Source of the DNA: an uncultured Enterorhabdus sp.
GTDB taxonomy: Bacteria; Actinomycetota; Coriobacteriia; Coriobacteriales; Eggerthellaceae
Assembly: GCA_947649205.1 (NCBI GenBank)
Contig: CANSQM010000004.1
Coordinates: forward strand, 1-64,000
Reading direction: 5' to 3'
Length of the DNA: 64,000 nucleotides
Every line of letters begins with the position of its first letter. Position 1 is the first letter of the stretch. This document shows, in pieces, positions 18,169-31,070 of the stretch. The notes beneath the pieces were generated by a model. The model was given only the letters and a program-made list of their open reading frames with translations, had not been told where the DNA came from and did not search any database. A program made the translations under genes and the position numbers.

Positions 18169-18624
18169 CTATCCTTCTTCTTTGTATTCTTCTTTGCTTT
18201 TAAGGTGCCAATCTGGCACCCCCTCAGGCGACATCCCGTCATCTACTCCATGCTTGGAAGCGGACGATTTGTCAGGGAGTGACAACTTGTCAGGTGCGCA
18301 GAACGTCCTCATCGCACGATGGCCGAGCACGTAGCTCCTCGTTGTCATCCCGTCCCTTGTCCAATCACTTCCGGCCTCGGCGATAAGCCCTCTCTGCTCC
18401 AGCTCTGATACCGCCCTGATGACGGAGCGCTCGGACACGCCGAGATAGGTTGCGGTCCTCTTGCGGCTCTCGTAGAACGTCCCGCCGTCCTTGCAGAATC
18501 CGTAGATTCGCGCGAACACGAGCAGCGTCGTACCCTTGAGCCCGAGCTCCTTCCACATGAAGGGGTGCAGGATCAGGAAGGCGTCGCTGTCTCGCGGGCG
18601 CGCAGGTTCTCTCTTCGCATGCAT
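18169..18624 (-). CDS. Replication-initiator-like winged helix protein
   Basis: A 151-residue protein. The first 95 residues resemble the RepA N-terminal winged helix: FLILHPFMWKELGLKGTT, IYGFCKDGGTFYES and YLGVSERSVIRAVSELEQRG. The rest is a polar tail. It lies 15 bp upstream of the DnaC-like gene, an initiator-loader pairing common on plasmids and replicating conjugative elements. A purely regulatory role is also possible. The start has only a weak ribosome site. Confidence 0.7.
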   Translation of the reverse strand: MHAKREPARPRDSDAFLILHPFMWKELGLKGTTLLVFARIYGFCKDGGTFYESRKRTATYLGVSERSVIRAVSELEQRGLIAEAGSDWTRDGMTTRSYVLGHRAMRTFCAPDKLSLPDKSSASKHGVDDGMSPEGVPDWHLKSKEEYKEEG

Positions 18625-18633
18625 CGCCGCCGC

Positions 18634-18873
18634 CTACCCGACGCCGATTTTCGAGAAGTTGCGCATAGCCCAGTCGAGCAGCTCGACCCTGAATGCGATC
18701 GACCCCTTCTTCTGGCCCTCCATGCGCCTTAACGGCAGGGGGTCGATGCCCCTCTTCGAGAGCTCCCATACCTTGTTCTTGCTTATGCCTAAGAGCCGGG
18801 CTACCTCGTAGGCGTTGTAGATGTCCTGCACGGGCACCGGCTGCTTCGATGAATCGTCAAAGATCTCGGGCAT
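18634..18873 (-). CDS. Excisionase-type helix-turn-helix protein
   Basis: The ATG at 18873 follows AGGAG by five bases, giving 79 residues. It contains a MerR/excisionase-like helix-turn-helix (YEVARLLGISKNKVWELSKRG) and a winged segment (LPLRRMEGQKKGSIAFRV). The next gene on the minus strand is the initiator-like protein. It could direct excision or repress the replication genes; the sequence does not decide. Confidence 0.75.
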   Translation of the reverse strand: MPEIFDDSSKQPVPVQDIYNAYEVARLLGISKNKVWELSKRGIDPLPLRRMEGQKKGSIAFRVELLDWAMRNFSKIGVG

Positions 18874-18914: not shown

Positions 18915-19172
18915 TCAAGACCCTTGCTGGCCTGAGCCCGATAGGCGATCGAGCATCCGCTCGATCGCCGATGGAGTCACCCTGTAGAGGCGGCCGAGGT
19001 TCACGGCCTCAAGCTCGCTCTTGCGGATCAGCTGGTAAACTTTCGCTGTCGAGACGCCGAGGCTCTCGGCGACCTCGCCGACGCTCAGGAGCCGTGGCGA
19101 CCTCATGTCGTTGGCCTGGTGGGACACCGGCTCTTCGCGTTTCATTTCCCTGATATCTTTCGGCATTTGCAT
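18915..19172 (-). CDS. HTH_17-type DNA-binding protein
   Basis: 85 residues with a clear excisionase-like helix-turn-helix (LLSVGEVAESLGVSTAKVYQLI) and wing (VNLGRLYRVTP). GAAGG precedes the first ATG; a second ATG two codons later is also possible. It is the first gene of the minus-strand element operon, about 110 bp downstream of repeat array B. It probably acts as excisionase or as regulator of the operon. Confidence 0.75.
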   Translation of the reverse strand: MQMPKDIREMKREEPVSHQANDMRSPRLLSVGEVAESLGVSTAKVYQLIRKSELEAVNLGRLYRVTPSAIERMLDRLSGSGQQGS

Positions 19173-19732: not shown

Positions 19733-20650
19733 ATGAGGAGATTGCAAGAGGCAAGCGCCCCGAAAAAGCAGCACTACGTGCCCCAGTACTACCTGAGGCG
19801 CTTCTCGGATGATGGCGACAGCCTCTGGGTTTTCAACCGCAAAGCGGGCAAGACCTACAAGAGCAGATCGGAAGATGCGTGCGAGCGGAAGTACCATTAC
19901 GAGATGGAGGCGAGATGTCAGAGGAGTTGGCATGGGCGTCACCTCCTCCCCGGGAAGATCGAGAAAAAGCTCTCCGAGATAGAGGGCGAGCAAGCGCTCC
20001 TCCTTCGCGAGATAGATGCCCAGCTCGATGTTGGACGCATCCACGAAAAGGAGCGAAGGGCGCTTTTGTGGCTGGTCGGGCATTTGATCGCGAGGCACCC
20101 TGCAATGCTTGCGGACTACGAGCCGGATTACGAAGCAATGTACAGTGATCCCGAAGTGAGATGGGGCTGCGAGGTTCTGGCTCAGGCGGGAATGGCCGAC
20201 GAGATCGAGGTGCTGGCGCAAGGTGCTAACCAGATGGTGCTCGCGCTTTGGCGATGCAAGGGGAGCCCCACGTATTTCGCCAAGAGCGATCTCGAAAGGC
20301 TGCGATGCCACTTCATCAGGCCGCAGGGGGAGGCTCGCTTCATTACCTCTTCCCTCCCTCCGCATTTCAACACGACGCTTCAGAAGGATGGGAAGTACCA
20401 CATCGACGACCTTACGCTTCCGCTGTCCTCCACCCTCGCGGTAGTCTATTCCGACGCGGGGCCGACGAAGTGCGACGTCCTAAAGGTTCCAGATAGCACT
20501 GTCGTTAGGCTGAACTCCGGCTACTTCGTCTCGGAGCCCACATGCGAGCAGGTGGTCTCCGGAAGAAGAGAGGATCTCGATCAAGCCCGTATTCTCGCCC
20601 AGCGCTTTCGCATCAGTGCAGCTATGGCGCGAAGGGAAAATCATTGGTGA
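19733..20650 (+). CDS. DUF4238 domain protein
   Basis: The ATG at 19733 follows GGAAGAGAG and gives 305 residues. The N-terminus has the DUF4238 signature KKQHYVPQYYLRRFSDD, then LWVFNRKAGKTY. The middle has a helical region with a conserved-looking LLWLVGHLIARHP. The C-terminus contains FITSSLPPHFNT and beta strands. The family's role is not established, though its members often lie in mobile or defence islands. It is on the opposite strand to the transfer module. Confidence 0.8.
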   Translation: MRRLQEASAPKKQHYVPQYYLRRFSDDGDSLWVFNRKAGKTYKSRSEDACERKYHYEMEARCQRSWHGRHLLPGKIEKKLSEIEGEQALLLREIDAQLDVGRIHEKERRALLWLVGHLIARHPAMLADYEPDYEAMYSDPEVRWGCEVLAQAGMADEIEVLAQGANQMVLALWRCKGSPTYFAKSDLERLRCHFIRPQGEARFITSSLPPHFNTTLQKDGKYHIDDLTLPLSSTLAVVYSDAGPTKCDVLKVPDSTVVRLNSGYFVSEPTCEQVVSGRREDLDQARILAQRFRISAAMARRENHW

Positions 20651-20682
20651 CGTGTTAATTTGCGAATATTCGCAGGTCATCG

Positions 20683-20707
20683 CCACTGTGACAATGTGTC
20701 ACAGTGG
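20683..20707. promoter_or_regulatory. 25-bp perfect palindrome (candidate operator)
   Basis: CCACTGTGACA-ATG-TGTCACAGTGG has perfect 11-bp arms around a 3-base centre. A near copy lies at 22450-22471 with ATT at the centre. The two bracket the polymerase gene and its small partner. They look like operators of one dimeric regulator. Confidence 0.65.
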
Positions 20708-20817
20708 GTTTGGGCGAAACCTCCTTTCGAGCCTCCGTCCTTCTCGCTTCGGAAAATCCACAATCTGTTCGATTGACTGAATAAGCGATCGGGTGCATCA
20801 TAGGGATTCACGATAAT

Positions 20818-20831
20818 CGAACACTTGTTCC
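20818..20831 (+). promoter_or_regulatory. LexA (SOS) box
   Basis: CGAACACTTGTTCC differs from the Gram-positive/actinobacterial LexA consensus CGAAC-N4-GTTCG at the last base only. It lies 23 bp upstream of the Y-family polymerase start, where LexA would block transcription. Confidence 0.7.
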
Positions 20832-20853
20832 CATTTGATAACAAGGAGGTGCC

Positions 20854-22128
20854 ATGGGCGACAGGGTCATCATGCATGTCGACATGAACGCCTTCTACGC
20901 GAGCGTCGCCCAGCACCTCGACCCGGGGCTGAGGGGCAAGGCCGTGGCGGTGGCGGGCGACCCCGAGCGCAGGAGCGGAATCATCCTCGCGAAGTCCCGG
21001 GAGGCGAAGGCCTGCGGCGTGAAGACGGCCGAGGCGATCTGGCAGGCCAAGCAGAAATGCCCGGACCTCGTCGTCGTGCCGCCCGACTACGCCGCCTACA
21101 AGCGCTATTCGCGTCTGGCGCGCATGATCTACTACGGCTACACAGACCTCGTCGAGCCCTTCGGCCTCGACGAGTCGTGGATCGACGTCACGGGATCGCT
21201 TCAGCTGTTCGGGGCCGACGCCATGCTCGTGGCGAGGGAGATATCGGAGCGCGTGAAGTCCGAGCTCGGGCTCACCGTTTCCGTCGGCATCTCGTGGAAC
21301 AAGGTATTCGCCAAGCTCGGGAGCGACACCGATCCGGGCGACGGCATCATCGCCATAACGCGGGAGAACTTCCGCGACGTCGCATGGCCCATGGCCGCTT
21401 CCGAGATGGTCTACGTCGGTCCTGCCACCATGCGCAAGCTCCATTCCGCCGGATACGAGACCATAGGGGACCTCGCACATGCCGGGGACCAATTTCTGAA
21501 GAGGCGCTTCGGCAAGATCGGCATCATGCTGCGCGCGTTCGCGAGGGGCGAGGACGCGAGCCCCGTGAAGGCCATGGATCCCTCGAAGGCCGATGTGGAC
21601 TATGTTGTGAAGGGAATCGGCAACGGCCTCACCGCCCCGCACGATCTCGAATGCGACTCCGACGTGAAGGCCCTCGTATGGCTCCTCTCCGAATCCGTGG
21701 CGCAGAGGCTTCGCGAGTCACGGATGCGCTGCCGGACGGTGGCGGTGGGGGCGCGGTTCGCACGCGACCTTTCCGGCTACTCAAGGCAGAGGACGCTGAG
21801 GACCCCGACCTGCCTCACGAGAGACGTCGCGAACGTCGCCATGGAGCTTCTACGCTCGAACCAACCGATCGACAAGGAGCATGCGCTCAGAGCCGTGCAC
21901 GTGCGCGTGACCAATCTCGTTCCCATGGACGCGCCCGTGCAGTGCGAGCTCTTCGGGGACGCCGAGGAGGCGGAGCGCCTTGAGAGGCTGGACCTCGCGA
22001 TCGACGCGCTGAGGGAGCGCTTCGGCAACACCTGCGTGAAGCGGGCGGTCGAGCTCACCGACGAGGTCATGTCAGGCTTCGACATCAAGCGCGACAATAC
22101 CGTCCACCCCGTAGGGTTCCTCAGGTAG
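20854..22128 (+). CDS. Y-family (DinB/UmuC-like) translesion DNA polymerase
   Basis: A 424-residue error-prone polymerase. It opens with the catalytic MHVDMNAFYASV, and the second acidic motif is FGLDESWIDVTGS. Thumb and little-finger regions follow (VSVGISWNKVFAKLGS, GIGNGLTAPHD). The C-terminus has QCELF, a beta-clamp binding motif. AAGGAGG lies 5 bases before the ATG. The upstream LexA-like box predicts DNA-damage induction. Plasmid and ICE-borne Y-family polymerases typically help repair or mutagenesis after transfer. Confidence 0.93.
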   Translation: MGDRVIMHVDMNAFYASVAQHLDPGLRGKAVAVAGDPERRSGIILAKSREAKACGVKTAEAIWQAKQKCPDLVVVPPDYAAYKRYSRLARMIYYGYTDLVEPFGLDESWIDVTGSLQLFGADAMLVAREISERVKSELGLTVSVGISWNKVFAKLGSDTDPGDGIIAITRENFRDVAWPMAASEMVYVGPATMRKLHSAGYETIGDLAHAGDQFLKRRFGKIGIMLRAFARGEDASPVKAMDPSKADVDYVVKGIGNGLTAPHDLECDSDVKALVWLLSESVAQRLRESRMRCRTVAVGARFARDLSGYSRQRTLRTPTCLTRDVANVAMELLRSNQPIDKEHALRAVHVRVTNLVPMDAPVQCELFGDAEEAERLERLDLAIDALRERFGNTCVKRAVELTDEVMSGFDIKRDNTVHPVGFLR

Positions 22129-22137
22129 GCGGGCATC

Positions 22138-22413
22138 ATGGTCGAAGGCATCTCGGGAAGGGTCAAGCGGTACGTCAGCGTCACGGCGCGCATGGACGAG
22201 GACGGGCGCGTGCGGCCGCTCTCCATCCAGTGGTACGACGGCAAGACCTATCCCATCGACGAGGTCAGGGACGTGCGCCGCGCCTCGTCGCGCAAGGTCG
22301 GCGGAGACGGCATCTGCTACACCGTCCGGATCGGCAACAACGTCACCTACCTGTTCTACGAGGATCCGCGCTGGTTCGTGGAAGAGGTAGTCAAGGGCGA
22401 CATGTCCGCATAA
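22138..22413 (+). CDS. Small protein coupled to the Y-family polymerase
   Basis: 91 residues, nine bases after the polymerase stop. It is a beta-rich domain: SIQWYDGKTYPIDEV, CYTVRIGNNVTYLFYEDPRWFVEEV. The pattern of a modified-residue-like W-DGK-YPI followed by a small barrel resembles proteins such as DUF6504 that follow translesion polymerases in actinobacteria. That similarity is from memory and not verified. It is probably an accessory of the polymerase. Confidence 0.65.
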   Translation: MVEGISGRVKRYVSVTARMDEDGRVRPLSIQWYDGKTYPIDEVRDVRRASSRKVGGDGICYTVRIGNNVTYLFYEDPRWFVEEVVKGDMSA

Positions 22414-22449
22414 AAGCTTGCATTTCTTGAGCAAAACGCCAGTTCGGAG

Positions 22450-22471
22450 CCACTGTGACAATTTGTCACAG
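22450..22471. promoter_or_regulatory. Second copy of the CCACTGTGACA palindrome
   Basis: CCACTGTGACA-ATT-TGTCACAG repeats the element at 20683-20707 with a shorter right arm. It lies after the polymerase partner gene and before the next plus-strand gene block at 22793, so it may be that block's operator. Confidence 0.6.
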
Positions 22472-22792
22472 CGAATGCGGGCACCGTTCCTATCTGTTGG
22501 GCTGATACGCTCTTTCCCGTGACCTCCGTCGCCTCAGGTGCGCCCTGCCCCGCCTCTCATCCAGGCACGCTCGCACAGAACCCGCCATGTGCGCCGCAAG
22601 GCGCGCCCTTCCTGCGCAAAACCCGCACATGCACATCCAGTGCCTTTGACTTTTGCATGTGCAGGTTGCGGACGTGCGTCCTTTGCGAAGAAGCCCGCTT
22701 TCCTCCTTGCAGCGCAGGCGGAACCTGCGCACGACCCCGGATCACGAGGCGGTGGCACAGGGCGACCGCCGAAAGACAAGGAGGTCTTCAAA
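22472..22792. other. Gene-free region with three hairpins (candidate transfer-origin or leader)
   Basis: No convincing gene. Perfect inverted repeats are GCGCC-GCAA-GGCGC (22591-22604), GCACATGCA/TGCATGTGC (22625-22633, 22654-22662, 20-base loop) and GCGCAGG/CCTGCGC (22712-22718, 22724-22730). Clustered inverted repeats ahead of small conserved element genes resemble an oriT with its leading region, but no nick site can be recognised and no relaxase gene is nearby. Confidence 0.35.
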
Positions 22793-23449
22793 ATGGGAAA
22801 TCGAGCAGTCATCACCACGCCGGACAAGAACCTGGCACTCTACCTCCACTGGAACGGCGGCCGCGACACGGTCGAGCCGCTGCTCAAGTACTGCGAGCTT
22901 CAGGGCTACCGTCCTCCGAGCCAGGACTGCTACGGATGGGCGCGGATGGCCCAGGTGGTCGGGAACTTCTTCGGCGGGTCGCTCTCGGTGGGCATAGACC
23001 GGTACCGAAACCTTGGCGACCAGGGCGACAACGGCGTATACGTCATCGACGGTTGGAAGATAGTCGATCGCTACACCACGGATTACGACGAGGGCTGGAA
23101 CGCGATCGGCCTGAGACACATCGACCCTTCCGCCGAGCAGAGCGGATACGACTTCGACGAGATGCTTCACGCTTTCGATGAGGCAATGCCCGAAAACCTG
23201 AGGCTCGGCGCCTTCCTGGACGCCGAAGAGGTGCCGGTGTCCGATGTCCGCCTGGGCGACAAGGTTTGGATGAGCGCGTACGAGTCCAACCCCGAGCTCT
23301 TCGAGGTCGTGGGCTTCGGCGCAGACGATGCCCCCAGGGGCTTCAAGGGAATTCCCTTCGTCAACCGCTACGAGCACGACGGCGACTACTCCTGGAACGG
23401 CAACAACTACATCGACGCCGACACCTGCCGCATCGCCCCGCGCGTGTAG
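22793..23449 (+). CDS. Conserved mobile-element protein, unknown function
   Basis: AAGGAGG precedes the ATG at 22793, giving 218 residues. The sequence opens MGNRAVITTPDKNLALYLHWNGG and has YCELQGYRPPSQ, DNGVYVIDGW and a C-terminal region with VGFGADDAPRGFKGIPFVNRY, separated here into short motifs. It is soluble with many aromatic residues. Proteins starting this way are common in Gram-positive conjugative elements, but no function is established that I can name. Confidence 0.75.
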   Translation: MGNRAVITTPDKNLALYLHWNGGRDTVEPLLKYCELQGYRPPSQDCYGWARMAQVVGNFFGGSLSVGIDRYRNLGDQGDNGVYVIDGWKIVDRYTTDYDEGWNAIGLRHIDPSAEQSGYDFDEMLHAFDEAMPENLRLGAFLDAEEVPVSDVRLGDKVWMSAYESNPELFEVVGFGADDAPRGFKGIPFVNRYEHDGDYSWNGNNYIDADTCRIAPRV

Positions 23450-23515
23450 AAGCCTCCAGCTCCGCAACGACCAGGGGCGCGGCCAAGCCGCGCCCCCTAC
23501 AGAAAGGACAGACAC

Positions 23516-23797
23516 ATGAACGGAAACCACATCTTCGCGACGCGCAGGGAGGATATAGTCGATCCCTCCAGGCTTACGCGCAGGGAACTGCTCAGCGCCA
23601 TCTACTGGCTCAACCAGGAGCTCACGGGCCGTGTGATATTCGGCGGGGCTGCGGCTTGCGATTACGTCGGGCGCGAGCTGAAGAGGACTTCCGCCAATTC
23701 GAAACCGGTGCTCATCGAGAGGTTCAACGATATGGTGGACGAGCTGATCGGGACCGACCCGTATTCCCGCGTGCTGCGGATCTACAGGAAGAAGTAG
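23516..23797 (+). CDS. Small conserved hypothetical protein, 93 aa
   Basis: AGAAAGGA lies nine bases before the ATG. The product is helical and basic (RLTRRELLSAIYWLNQEL, then SKPVLIERFNDMVDELIG). It follows the 22793 gene by 66 bp on the same strand and is probably cotranscribed. No domain is recognised. Confidence 0.65.
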   Translation: MNGNHIFATRREDIVDPSRLTRRELLSAIYWLNQELTGRVIFGGAAACDYVGRELKRTSANSKPVLIERFNDMVDELIGTDPYSRVLRIYRKK

Positions 23798-23863
23798 CGG
23801 CAATCGACGAGCAGGCTTCGGATCGCTGGCGGTCCAAGTCTGCTCGCTCTTTCGGCATGGTAC

Positions 23864-23908
23864 AAACAATCACACTGAATCTATGCTAATATATCAGTGT
23901 GATTGTTT
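23864..23908. promoter_or_regulatory. AbiE operator palindrome 1
   Basis: Perfect 15-bp arms AAACAATCACACTGA (23864-23878) and TCAGTGTGATTGTTT (23894-23908) flank a 15-base centre holding TATGCTAAT, a likely -10 region. The right arm ends at the base before the antitoxin ATG. AbiEi antitoxins are known to bind inverted repeats in their own promoter, so this is a likely autorepression site. Confidence 0.8.
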
Positions 23909-24508
23909 ATGGCAAATAGAAGCGAACAGAAGATCGAGCGACTGCTCGACGAGAACAACGGCGTCCTCATCGCCTCGGAGGCGATAGGCTCGGGGATCCC
24001 GAGGAACGCGGTCTACGACTTCGCGAGGGAGCGGGGACTGGAGAAGGCGTCCCCGGGCATCTTCGTGGAGGCCGACATGTTCCCCGACGAGCTCTACCTG
24101 CTCCAGGCGCGCTACCCCAAGGTCGTGTTCTCGCACGAGACGGCGCTCTACCTCCACGACATGGCGGAGCGCGAGCCCGTCCCCATCGCGCTCACGGTGG
24201 AGTCGGGCTACCACTCGGGGTCCCTCAAGGACCAGGGCGTGAGGATCTTCTACGTGAAGCCGGAGTGGTACGGCCTCGGGATCTCCGAGGCGGAGTCGCC
24301 GGGCGGCCATGTCGTGAGGGCGTACGACAGGGAGCGCACCGTCTGCGACGTCGTGCGCAGGAAGGCGGCCATGGACCCCGCCGCCTACGGGTACGCCCTC
24401 CGCAGGTACGCGGCGAGCAGGGAGAAGGACCTCGCCAGGCTCGGGCGCTACGCCAGGGAGATGGGGGTCGAGAGGCAGGTGCAGCAGGTGATGGAGGTAC
24501 TTCTGTGA
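23909..24508 (+). CDS. abiEi: AbiEi-family antitoxin (type IV toxin-antitoxin)
   Basis: The 199-residue product has an N-terminal winged helix (IERLLDENNGVLIASEAIGSG, SGIPRNAVYDF) and the AbiEi antitoxin core (ARYPKVVFSHETALYLHDMAE, VTVESGY-like SGYHSGSLKDQGVRIFYV). It represses its own promoter and neutralises the AbiEii toxin without stable binding. I chose the ATG at 23909 rather than the TTG two codons earlier. The start lies directly after the operator, so the mRNA may be leaderless. Its end overlaps the toxin start. Confidence 0.9.
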   Translation: MANRSEQKIERLLDENNGVLIASEAIGSGIPRNAVYDFARERGLEKASPGIFVEADMFPDELYLLQARYPKVVFSHETALYLHDMAEREPVPIALTVESGYHSGSLKDQGVRIFYVKPEWYGLGISEAESPGGHVVRAYDRERTVCDVVRRKAAMDPAAYGYALRRYAASREKDLARLGRYAREMGVERQVQQVMEVLL

Positions 24509-25362
24509 TCAAGGGTGCGCGCAGGGTGAAGGACCTGATCCGCAACAAGGCCGAGGGAGACAGCAGCAGGTCCCAGTCGCTCTTGCGCCACTACGCCATG
24601 GAACGGTTCCTGGAGAGGCTCGCGAACTCCCCATACCGGGACAACTTCGTGCTCAAAGGCGGCATGCTGATGTCCTCGCTCGTGGGCGTGGATCAGCGCA
24701 GCACGATGGACATCGACGCGACCGTCAAGGGATTGGCGCTCTATACGGGCAACGCCCTCAAGGTCGTGGGGGAGATCGCCTCCATCGAGCTCGACGACGG
24801 AATGGAGTTCCAGGTCGGCGACGCGGGAGAGATCATGGAGGACTCCGAGTACGGCGGCGTACGGATAGCGCTCACGGCACGCATGGAGAAGACACGCATC
24901 CCCATGAAGATCGACATCTCGACGGGGGACGCGATCACCCCGGCCGAGGTCATGCACAGGTACCGCCTCATGTTCGAGGACCGCGACATCGGCATATGGG
25001 CGTACCCGGTGGAGACCGTGCTCGCGGAGAAGATCGAGACCGCCCTCACGAGGGGGACCCTCAACACGAGGATGAGGGACTTCTACGACGTCGTCATGCT
25101 CCGCGAACTGGACGAGGGCCTGGAGCCGTCGAGCCTGCGGGCGGCGCTTGAGGCCACCATCGAGAAAAGGGGCAGCGGCATCAGTGCGTCCAACTACACT
25201 CAGACGTTGGCCGAGATAGAGGGCAGCGCGACCATGGCGGAGAGATGGCGGTCCTACGGCCTATCGAACTCCTATGCCTCCTCGATCGCGTGGACGGACG
25301 CCGTCGGGTCGATTCGCCTCCTGTGCGATGCGTGCTGGCAGGGTGCGCGAGATCCCGATTAG
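24505..25362 (+). CDS. abiEii: AbiEii-family nucleotidyltransferase toxin
   Basis: Starts at the GTG overlapping the antitoxin stop (GTGA), giving 285 residues. It has the DUF1814 nucleotidyltransferase signature: KGG (51-53) and MDID (Asp69, Asp71). A conserved AEKIETAL motif and a DFYDVVML segment follow. AbiEii-type enzymes block growth by adding nucleotides to target RNA such as tRNA. Both parts of this locus look intact. Confidence 0.9.
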   Translation: MIKGARRVKDLIRNKAEGDSSRSQSLLRHYAMERFLERLANSPYRDNFVLKGGMLMSSLVGVDQRSTMDIDATVKGLALYTGNALKVVGEIASIELDDGMEFQVGDAGEIMEDSEYGGVRIALTARMEKTRIPMKIDISTGDAITPAEVMHRYRLMFEDRDIGIWAYPVETVLAEKIETALTRGTLNTRMRDFYDVVMLRELDEGLEPSSLRAALEATIEKRGSGISASNYTQTLAEIEGSATMAERWRSYGLSNSYASSIAWTDAVGSIRLLCDACWQGARDPD

Positions 25363-25439
25363 CCGTTCTTCGGTTAGACAAACGAGCAGAAACCTCTCGC
25401 ACGAGCCGCGAAGGACAATGCTTTCGTGTCGACAACCCT

Positions 25440-25681
25440 TGAACTCATCGTGAACTCACTTTGAACTCATGGTTTCACGTTTGCGCAGGTAGAGGATTTA
25501 CACCCATACCCTGGTTTTACTCCTGCGTTATTCCTGGGTGTAAAAATGCGTCATATACAATAGATAGCTGAACTCAACTATAATGTGTGCAGAGAGTTTC
25601 TGCTGGTCAGGCAGTGAGTTTTCTGGTTTTCTGATTTACTCCCTCATGCTAGGACCAGAGATTGCGAAATGAGTGAGTTCA
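25440..25681. repeat. TGAACTCA repeat set with a consensus -10 box
   Basis: TGAACTCA occurs at 25440, 25451 and 25462 with exact 11-bp spacing, again at 25569, and inverted (TGAGTTCA) at 25674. A perfect TATAAT (25579-25584) lies two bases after the fourth copy, without a good -35 box, as in activator-dependent promoters. No gene is seen between 25363 and 26024. Confidence 0.55.
25497..25544. repeat. Inverted repeat TTTACACCCA/TGGGTGTAAA
   Basis: Perfect 10-bp arms at 25497-25506 and 25535-25544 enclose 28 bases that contain a smaller CCCTGG/CCTGGG pair. It lies between the two groups of TGAACTCA repeats and could be an operator, a recombination site or an RNA stem. Confidence 0.45.
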
Positions 25682-25708
25682 AAACGGTACTGGGAATGCT
25701 CGGCACTG

Positions 25709-25738
25709 TTGGGACGTCCTGTAACGAGGTGATATGAT
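25709..25738 (+). promoter_or_regulatory. Promoter of the candidate structured RNA
   Basis: TTGGGA (25709-25714) and TATGAT (25733-25738) are 18 bases apart. Transcription would begin near 25745 and run into the terminator at 25849-25896. Confidence 0.55.
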
Positions 25739-25744
25739 ACGGCA

Positions 25745-25896
25745 CTGATCGTACAACTATCCGCCCCGGCTACCATCGAATGGGAGTAGGTAGCTTCGGA
25801 AAGCTGCATTACTTTCTAACAAAGGATGCCATAGAATATATGCTTGTTAGCCCCGGTTCGACTGCTGATTCAAGTCACCGGGGCTCTTTGTTTTTC
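25745..25896 (+). ncRNA. Candidate structured RNA or attenuator with terminator
   Basis: The 3' end is a terminator: AGCCCCGG (25849-25856), CCGGGGCT (25878-25885), then CTTTGTTTTT. A second GCCCCGG at 25763-25769 could pair with the same 3' arm and close the whole RNA instead. Inside are GCTACC/GGTAGC (25769-25774, 25789-25794) and the overlapping AGCTT/AAGCT (25792-25805). Mutually exclusive pairings suggest a switch. The RHH-Fic operon starts about 130 bp downstream. I do not recognise a known riboswitch class. Confidence 0.5.
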
Positions 25897-26024
25897 CTGG
25901 CGTGCGCGGAGAAAGCGAGCGAGTCATGCACCATAGCAGATGACATCACCCCTTGACAAAAGTCATAAAGGGAAGAAAAATGGAATGGTAGATTTCTAGA
26001 AATCTTCCTTTGAAAGGGATTATC

Positions 26025-26351
26025 GTGCCTAAAGCCATCAAGCCAGCATCGTTCGAGGACTTCCTTGGAGCAGCCGCTCGCCTCTCGGAACAGAAGGTTC
26101 TCCATGCCGGTAGCTCCAGCAGGGAAGAGCCAGCATCCGCAGTCAAACCCTCTTCTGCGCCCAGCGCGAAATATCCCAAAGCACCCTCTCGCAAGGTAAA
26201 AGTAGGACTGACCATAGACGAGGATCTTATTGATGCCGTAGATGACTACATCTACCACGCGCGGAAGCAAGGGCGGAGACTTAAAAAGAACGATGTATAC
26301 GAAGCCGCTCTGCGCCAATTCCTTGAGGCAGAAGGGATCAATGTCCAATGA
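26025..26351 (+). CDS. Ribbon-helix-helix-like antitoxin partner of Fic
   Basis: The GTG at 26025 follows AAAGGG by six bases, giving 108 residues. The first half is a Pro/Ser/Ala-rich linker. The C-terminal half has a ribbon-helix-helix-like pattern (KVKVGLTIDEDLIDAVDDYIYHAR, KNDVYEAALRQFLEAEG). Its stop overlaps the Fic gene start (ATGA). It is probably the DNA-binding antitoxin or regulator of the pair. Confidence 0.65.
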   Translation: MPKAIKPASFEDFLGAAARLSEQKVLHAGSSSREEPASAVKPSSAPSAKYPKAPSRKVKVGLTIDEDLIDAVDDYIYHARKQGRRLKKNDVYEAALRQFLEAEGINVQ

Positions 26352-27016
26352 CCGCGAACGGAAAGCTCTCTCTCGAAGACAACATCTTCCTTGCCAAGCG
26401 AAACTTGGTGGACAGCATTTGGAAGGAGGCACGCCTTGAGGGCATCGCCGTCACGTATCCCCAAACCGCCGATGTGCTAGAAGGCCGCGTGGTGGCTGAC
26501 CTAAGCCTTGAGCAGAACCTTGCGCTCAACAACCTGAAGCAAGCATGGCGTTACGTCCTCGATGAGCCCCACTCCATAGGCTTCGATACGCTTCTGCACC
26601 TCAACCTGCTTATCGGCCAAGGCGGAGTGGTTCGCTATGCGGGCGAACTGCGCGACGGACTCGTGCGCATTGGAGGCACCGATTTCGTGCCAGCCGTTCC
26701 CGACGAGAATCAAGCCCGCAGCGAGTTTGCGCAAATTCTTTCCGTGGAAGAGCCCGTCATGTGCGCTTTGCTAGCATTCGCGTGGACGTGTCGCTCGCAG
26801 CTGTTCCGCGACGGCAACAAACGAACAGCGCAGCTTGTCACCAACGACATCCTCGTCCATTCGGGCGAGGGCATTCTAGCCGTGCCCATTGACGCCCAAA
26901 ACGAGTTCTTCGGACTGCTGGTGGCGTTCTACGAGAGCAACGTCCCCGATGAGCTCATTTCATTCCTGAGCGAGAAGTGCATCGAAAAGCCCGCGATTGG
27001 GAAGGCCGACGCTTAA
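26348..27016 (+). CDS. Fic/Doc-family protein with altered active site
   Basis: A 222-residue Fic fold. The core motif reads QLFRDGNKRT (151-160) where active Fic enzymes have HPFxxGNGR, so the catalytic histidine is replaced by Gln151; Asp155, Gly156, Asn157 and Arg159 remain. An N-terminal helix with RLEGIAVT (about 29-36) resembles the region that carries the inhibitory glutamate in self-restrained Fic proteins. It may lack AMP transfer or use another chemistry. Coupled to the upstream RHH gene. Confidence 0.8.
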   Translation: MTANGKLSLEDNIFLAKRNLVDSIWKEARLEGIAVTYPQTADVLEGRVVADLSLEQNLALNNLKQAWRYVLDEPHSIGFDTLLHLNLLIGQGGVVRYAGELRDGLVRIGGTDFVPAVPDENQARSEFAQILSVEEPVMCALLAFAWTCRSQLFRDGNKRTAQLVTNDILVHSGEGILAVPIDAQNEFFGLLVAFYESNVPDELISFLSEKCIEKPAIGKADA

Positions 27017-27763: not shown

Positions 27764-28011
27764 CTGACGGGCGTGCTTCCATCAGCTCATATGCCAAAAT
27801 AGGTTTAAGTCATAACTGCCTCCTTGGGTATTTGCCGATTGCTTCAAGCAGGTATCTATTCGGAGCAATCGGCTTGTATAATTGAAGGTTGAAAGTTCGG
27901 GAACTTTTTCAGCCCCACGAACACTTCAAACGACGAGATGCATTCTTTCTTATTTGCTTTTCACGTCGGGGAAAGTCAGGGAAACATCAGGGAAGTTCGA
28001 AGAAGGTAGTT

Positions 28012-29208
28012 GTGAAAAAATCCATTTCATTCAGCCAGTTTGCAGAAGCTGTGCGCTGCCTTTTCCCAGGGGCCCTAACTAATGGCGAATACGTTAGAGA
28101 GCTCTTTCTTCAAATAGTAGATTTCGGAGAAGACGAACAAGGCAATCCTGTTTTTTCGAGAAGCCTAGATACATTGAAGAGGTATTTGTCTGGAAATTCT
28201 CTGAGAAAGTTTGCAGGTAGGTTAGTGGGCAATCTCGACAAGTTCAAGTTCACCAGCTATGTTGAAGCGCGACCTCCAGATGAGCAGGAAACCGCGAGAG
28301 AGAAGCTCGCTGAATTCCTCTCATCAAGCCAATTCGCCAAATTCCCTGATGCTGTAGCGGAATTGTTCGAAGAAATAATTAGAGCAGAGGCTGACGGCAA
28401 AGAGTATACAATCGCCGAGTCAGTGCAATATGCTCTGCCGTTGTCAATGGATTATATGCCAACTCCCGAAAATGATTTTTTGAGGGAAGAATGTGCGGGT
28501 AAATGCTTGATTTGCGGCAAGAGACTGCAGAACTACTCTGCCGTGGAAATTATTCCAAAGGCATCTAATGTGCAAGTTCGAAACGAAATACGCGAGGCCC
28601 TGAAGGCCCGTGGCGTCACTGATTTACCAGATTTGAATGGATCGTTTGATACCAGCAGCACCGAGAATCATGCTCTGCTTGATCCAAATTGCAAGGCTGA
28701 TTACGAGACGCTATTTAATCCAGAGAAAGCAGCCAAGCTACTCATCGCCAAACGCAAAGCAAGTCAGCGGATAGCGTTGATGGAGAAGATCGACTCCTTG
28801 GAGATAGACGAGTATCTTGAAGAGCTTTTGGACTCCATGGACAGCCTTATTGACCTTGAGAAAATGGAATCGTTGCAATACGCCCCTCACGACATCAAGG
28901 AAAAAATTGAACCCGAGTATGTCACGATAAGGAATGATGTTAGCAGTAAGGTCTCTATGTATTACGGGTTTATTGAAGAACAACTACACCAGCGAGACGG
29001 AATCAACGGGTTCGATTTCGATGACCTTGCCATGAGCGTAAGGCATTGCTACAAGAATCTTTCTAAGCAGGGTTTAAGCCAAGATCATATTTATAGTCAA
29101 ATGGCGTTATGGGTGCAACGAATGACCAGATGCGAGAATTTGGTCGCATGTCAGATTCTTGTCGCGTTCTTTGTGCAGGAATGTGAGGTGTTCGATGAAA
29201 TTGCCTAG
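28012..29208 (+). CDS. ABC-3C system effector with degenerate HNH-like domain
   Basis: The GTG at 28012 follows AGAAGG by five bases, giving 398 residues. After a helical N-terminal region, residues 165-240 look HNH-like: CLICGK (Cys165, Cys168), VEIIPK, ENHALLDPNC (Asn219, Cys227). Where HNH nucleases have D-H, this has V-E (Glu179), so catalysis may be altered. The helical C-terminal half fits an ABC-3C C-terminal domain. It overlaps the middle-component gene and precedes a DUF2326 ATPase, the three-gene layout of ABC-3C conflict systems. Codon use is more AT-rich than the neighbours. Confidence 0.7.
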   Translation: MKKSISFSQFAEAVRCLFPGALTNGEYVRELFLQIVDFGEDEQGNPVFSRSLDTLKRYLSGNSLRKFAGRLVGNLDKFKFTSYVEARPPDEQETAREKLAEFLSSSQFAKFPDAVAELFEEIIRAEADGKEYTIAESVQYALPLSMDYMPTPENDFLREECAGKCLICGKRLQNYSAVEIIPKASNVQVRNEIREALKARGVTDLPDLNGSFDTSSTENHALLDPNCKADYETLFNPEKAAKLLIAKRKASQRIALMEKIDSLEIDEYLEELLDSMDSLIDLEKMESLQYAPHDIKEKIEPEYVTIRNDVSSKVSMYYGFIEEQLHQRDGINGFDFDDLAMSVRHCYKNLSKQGLSQDHIYSQMALWVQRMTRCENLVACQILVAFFVQECEVFDEIA

Positions 29209-29419
29209 CAAGGTCACACCTTACAAGAAGAGCACACTGGCAACCTTCCCAATCATCTTGAAAACGTTAAGCACGGTTGATTTGAGCCCAGATCTTCTAT
29301 ACTCGAAAGTCAAGGAGGACTTCTCTGGCATCTCGCAGTTCGTCGATGCCCTCGACTGCCTGTTCGCTTTGGGCAAAATCGAATTGCTTCCAGAAGGGGT
29401 GATTCATTATGTTGAGTGA
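29195..29419 (+). CDS. ABC-3C middle component
   Basis: A 74-residue protein whose ATG lies 14 bp inside the upstream gene and whose stop overlaps the ATPase start by 11 bp, so all three are translated together. It looks like a small winged-helix domain (LATFPIILKTLSTVDLSPDLLY, FVDALDCLFALGKIEL), typical of middle components thought to link ATPase and effector. The subtype (possibly MC6) is from memory. Confidence 0.7.
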   Translation: MKLPSKVTPYKKSTLATFPIILKTLSTVDLSPDLLYSKVKEDFSGISQFVDALDCLFALGKIELLPEGVIHYVE

Positions 29420-31070
29420 AATATATTCCGAAGCATTCAAGGAAAAAGGAGAGACACGCGACAAAGTCGAGTTTCACGCAGGTTTAAATCTTGTTGTCGG
29501 AGGCAATCGTGCGACCAATTCCATTGGCAAGACTACCTTTCTCTTGGCTATAGACTTCGCATTAGGTGGCAGCACGTATATCAACGCCGCTGGAGATATG
29601 ATAAAAAACGTAGGTCACCATACGGTTTGCTTCGCACATTCTTTTGGCAATGTGGCGCACCATTTCTCTCGCTCAACTGACACGCCGAACATTGTTTCAA
29701 AGTGCGATAGCAAATACCGAGAAACAAGTTCTATTTCCCTTGAAGAGTACACTGCATGGCTTACCTCTTATTATGGGTTGAGCGGATTAGGTGGAACGTT
29801 TAGAAGCCTCCAGTCACCATTTTTCAGAGTGTACGGAATGAATCACGACAACGTGGATCGGCCCCTCATCAGTCATAACTCCGATAAGGTCTCTAAAGAT
29901 TTGCAGCGGCTGTTGAAGCTTTTCGGAAGATACGAAGGCATTGCATCCTTGGATGGACAGGTTGATGAAATAGAAGATAAGAGAAAGGCATATCGTGAGG
30001 CTGCTGCATACAAGCTTATAAAGCCCACGGGAAACGCAAACGACTATAGACGCAATGTAGAGAAGCTTAAAATGCTTCATTCCCAAATGGAGGACATCCT
30101 TTCGAGCTCAGACAACGGCACTACTGACTTCGATACAGCTAAGGAAGAAAGGGCAGCACAACTCCGAAATGCTCTAAAGAACCTTCGACGCCAGCGAATG
30201 AGGATAGACAGTGCTATCAGAGAAATAGGGGAGGATCTCGAGTTCATTGACTTCAAAGCGACAAACGACTTCGAGAATTTGAAGTCCTTTTTTCCTTCGG
30301 TTGATCTTGCTCGATTCGAAGAAATAGAGGCTTTTCATAGGGGAATTACCAGGATTCTCGAGAAGAACCATTCCGATGAGTTAAAGAATCTGAGAGCTGA
30401 GCGCGAAGAGCTTGAAGGGCAGATTGCTCAAGTGGAGAATAGCCTGTCCGATCTGGGAGCGACAACTAACCTATCTGCCATGGTAATCGAACGTTACGCA
30501 GATTTGAAAACCGTTTATGACGAACTCTCCGCCGCAAACTCCCTTTATGACAAGAATCGCGAGAGCTCGAAACAACTCAAAGCGCGAAAAGTCGAACGTG
30601 AGGAAGCATGGCGCGCGGAACTAGACATCATCCAACCTTTGTTAAACGACGAGATGGATGATCTCAACGAGAAAGCGACTGACCCATACAAGACTGCACC
30701 TCGTATTGACCTAGCCAGCTCCAAGGAGTATCGATTCAGCGTCCCCAACGATGGCGGAACGGGATCGAGATACAGAGGTCTGTTCATTTTCGATATCGCG
30801 ATGCTTCGTCTATCATCACTCCAGTTTGCTATTCATGATTCGCTGGGCTTAAAGCAGATAGAAGATGATCATGTGCTAGGCATCCTTCAACTTTACGGAA
30901 GTCTTAATAAGCAAGTCTTTGCAGCTATAGACAAAGTAGATTCTTTGACTGCCGAGAGCAGCATACCGGAGATTGTTCAAAAGAATATGGTGTTGGAACT
31001 TTCTGAGGGACAAGAATTATTCGGTTGGTCATGGAATAGGAAAACCGAACTGGACGAGAGCGAAGAGTAG
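29409..31070 (+). CDS. DUF2326-type ABC ATPase of an ABC-3C system
   Basis: 553 residues. The N-terminus holds an ABC/SMC-like Walker A (GGNRATNSIGKTT, with Gly40-Lys41-Thr42). Long coiled-coil arms follow from about residue 180 to 430 (EIEDKRKAYREAA, AEREELEGQIAQVENSL). The C-terminal part has the Walker B-like FIFDIAMLRL region and a DUF2326-like end (HDSLGLKQIEDDHVLGIL). SMC-like ATPases of this kind sense DNA or RNP structures and gate the effector. The motif layout and small partner gene support the ABC-3C call. Confidence 0.85.
   Translation: MLSEIYSEAFKEKGETRDKVEFHAGLNLVVGGNRATNSIGKTTFLLAIDFALGGSTYINAAGDMIKNVGHHTVCFAHSFGNVAHHFSRSTDTPNIVSKCDSKYRETSSISLEEYTAWLTSYYGLSGLGGTFRSLQSPFFRVYGMNHDNVDRPLISHNSDKVSKDLQRLLKLFGRYEGIASLDGQVDEIEDKRKAYREAAAYKLIKPTGNANDYRRNVEKLKMLHSQMEDILSSSDNGTTDFDTAKEERAAQLRNALKNLRRQRMRIDSAIREIGEDLEFIDFKATNDFENLKSFFPSVDLARFEEIEAFHRGITRILEKNHSDELKNLRAEREELEGQIAQVENSLSDLGATTNLSAMVIERYADLKTVYDELSAANSLYDKNRESSKQLKARKVEREEAWRAELDIIQPLLNDEMDDLNEKATDPYKTAPRIDLASSKEYRFSVPNDGGTGSRYRGLFIFDIAMLRLSSLQFAIHDSLGLKQIEDDHVLGILQLYGSLNKQVFAAIDKVDSLTAESSIPEIVQKNMVLELSEGQELFGWSWNRKTELDESEE

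Follow-up and report, generated by a model that had tools for sequence, protein, structure and literature searches.

A solo copy of an Abi_2-linked hairpin RNA of Coriobacteriia at a junction of three modules in an uncultured Enterorhabdus sp.

The window, by which we mean the whole 64,000-nucleotide stretch of contig CANSQM010000004.1 that was analyzed, carries the end of a mobile element, a short hairpin and an RHH-Fic operon side by side, with the following features.

25440..25788, + strand: att-like end module (~350 bp) of a mobile element; recurs elsewhere beside different cargo and ends in a guaA-3'-end-like core
25832..25837, + strand: -10-like box TAGAAT of the hairpin RNA, 11 bases 5' of the hairpin; expected start ~25844
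25849..25885, + strand: 37-nt hairpin RNA, solo copy of the Coriobacteriia Abi_2-linked family; covariance model R1, covarying stem
25886..25896, + strand: T tract (TCTTTGTTTTT region), which with the hairpin makes an intrinsic-terminator-like end
25953..25981, + strand: RHH-Fic promoter TTGACA-17-AAAAAT, conserved in five genomes that lack the hairpin
25990..26005, + strand: palindrome AGATTTCTAGAAATCT, probable RHH-Fic operator; TTTCTAGAAAT is invariant in six aligned copies
26025..26351, + strand: gene for a small RHH-like protein, start codon GTG; a unit of its own, without the hairpin RNA as leader
26348..27016, + strand: gene for a Fic/DOC family protein (PF02661, 25.2 bits, cut-off 24)

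Three modules meet in this region, namely, the end of the mobile element (to 25788), the solo hairpin RNA (25849-25885) and the RHH-Fic operon with its own promoter. When 149 relatives were searched, the boundaries of the matches varied between genome sets: 25602-25788 matched in G001, G015 and G093, approximately 25846-25898 (the hairpin) matched in a second set, and the sequence from 25874 onward matched in a third.

Copies of the left module are 83-91% identical in G001 (where the module is repeated), G015 and G093, and the G093 contig terminates where the module ends. Positions 20001-25787 of the window are 95% identical to G093, and the part up to ~25360 is likewise 95% identical to G001 and G015, in which 3.9 kb and 1.1 kb of other DNA, respectively, precede the end module. 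An element of at least 14 kb is common to the window's genome and these three genomes at ~95% identity. The guaA-3'-end-like core at 25764-25789 reads ..PATIEWE*, and we considered guaA as the present integration site but rejected it, as the genome has a single guaA, which is intact and lies on a different contig. We detected no tyrosine recombinase on the window's contig. A phage or plasmid origin was also rejected, since blastn with a 771-base query matched no phage or plasmid, and the hairpin pattern did not occur in viral contigs. Other observations concern the module and its surroundings. A short frame ending in ..TIEWE* closes the module in the window (25735-25789), L048 (~19080-19140) and L046 (~18750-18805), with TAG, TAA and TGA as stop codons in three genomes and guaA not adjacent. 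The motifs TGAACTCA and TTTACTCC are repeated in the module (window 25440-25788; L046:14618-15020 and 18457-18840; L047:955-1325). In G001, the module ends several adjacent cargo segments, as if cargo had been successively added at the end of the element. An AbiEi/AbiEii type IV toxin-antitoxin pair lies directly 5' of the module (23903-25362), and ABC-three-component-like genes (CTD11 and DUF2326) lie at 27889-31070, making the window a defense island.

On the right side of the junction, relatives of RHH-Fic in five genomes share the TTGACA element (window 25953), the palindrome AGATTTCTAGAAATCT and the gene start, and the hairpin is missing from all five. Because these elements are shared without the hairpin, RHH-Fic is, as judged from its sequence, under its own promoter and probably its own operator, and the first-pass annotation of the RNA as an RHH-Fic leader is not supported. 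The RHH label of the small protein comes from that annotation and from inspection; searches of Pfam, PADLOC and NCBIfam returned no match to it.

The first-pass annotation had also described 25745-25896 as a riboswitch or attenuator with competing stems or as a small RNA, preceded by a promoter. All of the strings that it quoted are present: GCCCCGG at 25763-25769 and 25850-25856, the complement CCGGGGC at 25878-25884, GCTACC/GGTAGC (25769/25789), AGCTT/AAGCT (25792/25801), the T tract, and TTGGGA-18-TATGAT at 25709-25738. The pairing of the heptamers into a local hairpin with a T tract was borne out, as the local stem has a pair probability of 0.97 in the ensemble of 25745-25896. The alternative pairing into a 120-base closing stem (25763/25884) has a probability of 0.03, and enforcing it costs 3 kcal/mol. 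The first GCCCCGG lies within the 25440-25788 module, the heptamer is not conserved in the module's other copies, and comparison of homologous regions found no conservation of the long stem. When the 409 bases upstream are shuffled, the heptamer arises in ~1% of cases; its repetition in two unrelated modules is therefore probably coincidental. Folding of the plus strand of 25745-25900 is unremarkable (z = -1.30; 22 of 200 shuffles fold at least as well); the minus strand folds better (z = -2.91; 3 of 200 shuffles). The TTGGGA-18-TATGAT sequence exists, but as a promoter it is undermined by its absence from homologous copies of the module and by the number of such sites, of which it is one of three against 1.3 expected.

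Thus, a single switch RNA of 152 bases is not supported; the hairpin is good, and there is little sign of a switch. The complementary heptamers do speak for a riboswitch or attenuator ahead of RHH-Fic, but the halves of the supposed switch belong to different mobile modules, and the improbable long stem, the unconserved heptamer, the lack of an Rfam match and the occurrence of RHH-Fic without the RNA make this reading very improbable. The suggestion of a small RNA with ties to toxin-antitoxin biology came close to the truth, and the structured RNA with a terminator-like end is real. It likely runs from ~25844 to ~25896, a length of ~50 nt, instead of the ~150 nt from 25745 first proposed. Conservation beyond the strain, absent for the composite region, extends across the class for the hairpin.

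The window hairpin has a perfect 9-bp stem (25849-25857/25877-25885), and its inner GAC/GTC stem and loop are intact. Against covariance model R1, which was built from six sequences including the window copy, it scores 63 bits (E = 2e-12). The -35 of the hairpin RNA is weak, and this copy probably yields at most an RNA of ~50 nt ending at the T tract. A tRNA or tmRNA remnant, suggested by a 7-bp acceptor-like stem and a T-loop-like GGTTCGA, was rejected; ARAGORN finds none, and the conservation follows another architecture. No Abi_2 gene lies downstream of the hairpin in the window, and neither single-protein nor profile searches found an Abi of the linked subfamily described below in the window's genome. 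The window copy is therefore an orphan of an Abi_2-linked hairpin.

The covariance model gave 68 copies of the hairpin, spread over 57 of the 395 genomes searched from the order, and relatives across the order score 60-66 bits, far beyond chance. A scan of 84,980 species genomes for the exact pattern returned 34 stretches, all in Coriobacteriia or an unclassified actinobacterium; genera included Collinsella, Olsenella, Senegalimassilia, Gordonibacter, Adlercreutzia and Ellagibacter, among others. In this family, the outer stem spans 8 bp and the inner stem 3 bp, and the loop commonly has 11 nt, CKCUGAUUCAA. The inner stem, GAC/GTC, hardly varies among copies, and the conserved loop occurs in a few related forms. 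The outer stem covaries, with 20 cells in which both sides are changed versus 9.3 in shuffles, mainly at one or two positions (AGCCCCGG/CCGGGGCT, GGGCCCGG/CCGGGCCT and GGACCCGG/CCGGGTCT), a result to be read with the reservation that few positions carry it and that kin sequences can beat shuffles without structure. The Rfam scan proposed with the first-pass annotation gave no relevant match to the window or to the relatives at gathering or permissive thresholds. Likewise, the abiF model RF03085 matched neither at E values up to 5-10; the same model does find a true abiF copy in the same class (G068). A literature search, which covered part of the literature, found no report of this RNA family and no experimental work on these RNAs or the proteins linked to them.

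The hairpin is closely associated with one group of genes. An Abi_2 HEPN gene lies directly 3' in the same orientation of 33 of the 68 copies, and the other 35 lack one. In a search starting from the protein, 27 of 28 full-length subfamily genes had the hairpin directly upstream, three of these hairpins being weaker (23-31 bits). At the remaining gene, in G106 (L096 and L172), hairpin and Abi_2 appear to have been split by an insertion element with GGCTCT.. ends, which is flanked on both sides by the 8-base duplication TCAATTTT. Counting this locus, all 28 full-length genes carry the hairpin, and the linkage is near-obligate for these genes. A further subfamily gene, truncated at its start (G029), lacks the hairpin, and a distant relative (G376) has a variant hairpin in the equivalent position. 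A -10-like box precedes the hairpin by 9-12 bases in 32 of the 33 Abi-linked copies. Given this fixed distance, the transcript is expected to begin with the hairpin and to continue into the ribosome-binding site.

The partner proteins point to AbiF. PF07751 (Abi_2) was found in 18 of 18 aligned members, and the HEPN motif RNR..H (RNRxxxH, with the R-x4-H spacing) is invariant in all aligned members. NCBIfam has no model for these proteins, and a sequence search of solved structures returned nothing for them, so that the structural match is by fold only. An AlphaFold model (pLDDT 87.9) gave one clear match in the PDB, 8vz6, "PbAbiF dimer bound to ncRNA" (Foldseek probability 1.00, E = 0.016; VIA Z = 12.6 over 214 residues). 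A Z score near 13 can arise by chance for helical proteins; here the next entries are far lower (Csm6, 4.7; Cas13d, 4.4), and the domain family is concordant. By their Abi_2 domain and the AbiF fold of the model, we consider the linked proteins to be AbiF-type. The hairpin thus constitutes an RNA family that is absent from Rfam 15 and coupled to AbiF-type proteins in Coriobacteriia, a candidate second, lineage-specific AbiF-type RNA family.

The abiF RNA (RF03085), which includes RCd22 of C. difficile and AbiFr of PbAbiF, binds and neutralizes AbiF (PMC12373285; review, PMC12737573). Both families are hairpins of 36-38 nt with an outer stem (6 bp in Rfam abiF), a 3-bp inner stem and an 11-nt loop starting C-U/K-C-U, and both sit close 5' of an Abi_2 gene whose product has the AbiF fold. 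They differ in the loop (CUCUCAACGAU in abiF versus CKCUGAUUCAA) and the inner stem (AGC/GCU versus GAC/GUC), in the side of the larger internal loop (3' in abiF, 5' in the present family), and in the failure of the RF03085 model to match the present family. In addition, RCd22 has two hairpin copies versus one copy per gene here. Type III toxin-antitoxin systems (ToxIN, TenpIN and CptIN) likewise place a structured RNA 5' of a ribonuclease-type toxin gene; in contrast to them, the toxin in the present case is of the HEPN/Abi_2 type, and the RNA is a single hairpin instead of a tandem repeat array. In Cas13 with its crRNA repeats, too, a short hairpin is tied to a HEPN protein, and our model is weakly similar to Cas13d and Cas13b (Z = 4.4 and 3.2), but the present system lacks an array and spacers, and its proteins each have a single HEPN domain. 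AbiF has been proposed as the ancestor of Cas13, with the AbiF ncRNA as forerunner of the crRNA.

Computation establishes the RNA family with its covarying stem and conserved loop, the linkage to Abi_2 genes, and the AbiF-like fold and HEPN motif of the partner. We consider it probable that the hairpin is an AbiF-type RNA held together with an Abi_2 toxin and that the window copy is left over from such a locus beside unrelated modules. In this model, the mRNA of an AbiF-type Abi_2 HEPN ribonuclease would normally start with the hairpin at its extreme 5' end. By analogy with AbiF, the transcript would most likely supply a ~37-nt hairpin that is bound by the HEPN protein, and the bound hairpin may keep the toxin inactive until infection upsets the balance. 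Binding, processing and neutralization by the present hairpin are all drawn from this analogy. A 5'-terminal position on the mRNA would also suit a cis-acting 5'-UTR element for autoregulation, mRNA stability or translation control, and most Abi-linked copies lack a strong T tract ahead of the gene. Considering that free-standing copies with promoter-like boxes exist and that the nearest solved fold is an AbiF-ncRNA complex, we regard such an element in place of an antitoxin RNA as unlikely.

At the window itself, the hairpin would have been left over or separated from an Abi_2 locus and would now give at most the ~50-nt RNA, whose end at the T tract would also shield RHH-Fic from upstream transcription. 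There is an even chance that such shielding from read-through is all that it does, the hairpin being a plain intrinsic terminator and relic of an Abi_2 locus that supplies no RNA in trans. The T tract immediately 3' of the hairpin fits this explanation, as do the absence of an Abi gene from the window's genome, the decayed Abi genes behind copies L102, L103 and L104, and G012, in which the identical T tract is preceded at the same place by a different, longer hairpin. Against it, the loop and inner stem, which termination does not need, remain intact in this copy and in most of the other solo ones, and the -10-like box is retained at its usual distance. For the window copy, we rank a relic or terminator ahead of a trans-acting antitoxin.

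Solo copies are common beyond the window. Among 31 hairpin-containing genomes tested for a linked Abi, 25 had no match (the window's genome and 24 others). A further possibility, which we consider doubtful, is that solo copies are functional stand-alone RNA antitoxins against incoming toxin-bearing mobile elements (anti-addiction or immunity RNAs), kept intact without the toxin and often under their own promoter. A point against the main reading of the hairpin as an AbiF-type RNA is that about half of the copies are solo and some lack a promoter-like box, so that a general role as terminator or repeat is possible. In Collinsella, several solo hairpins have no clear -10-like box, and T-rich DNA then follows.

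Solo hairpins also occur in recurring surroundings. Those of Collinsella lie at recurrent places (L086:1560 and 2922; L087; L059, L060, L062, L065, L066, L072 and L116), many of them 5' of an RNase_T exonuclease gene and some paired ~1.4 kb apart. In Gordonibacter and relatives (L081, L084 and L122) and at L116:1460, solo hairpins lie 5' of AbiEi genes and of a type I restriction R-subunit-like gene, with 120-150 bases between these hairpins and the AbiEi genes. Orphan hairpins often adjoin other defense genes.

A second RNA family with an AbiF-like layout and a different sequence, in gut Coriobacteriia, would offer an independent case for studying how RNA-protein pairs evolve. With many orphan copies in toxin-free genomes, the persistence of RNA antitoxins against toxin-bearing mobile elements becomes testable.
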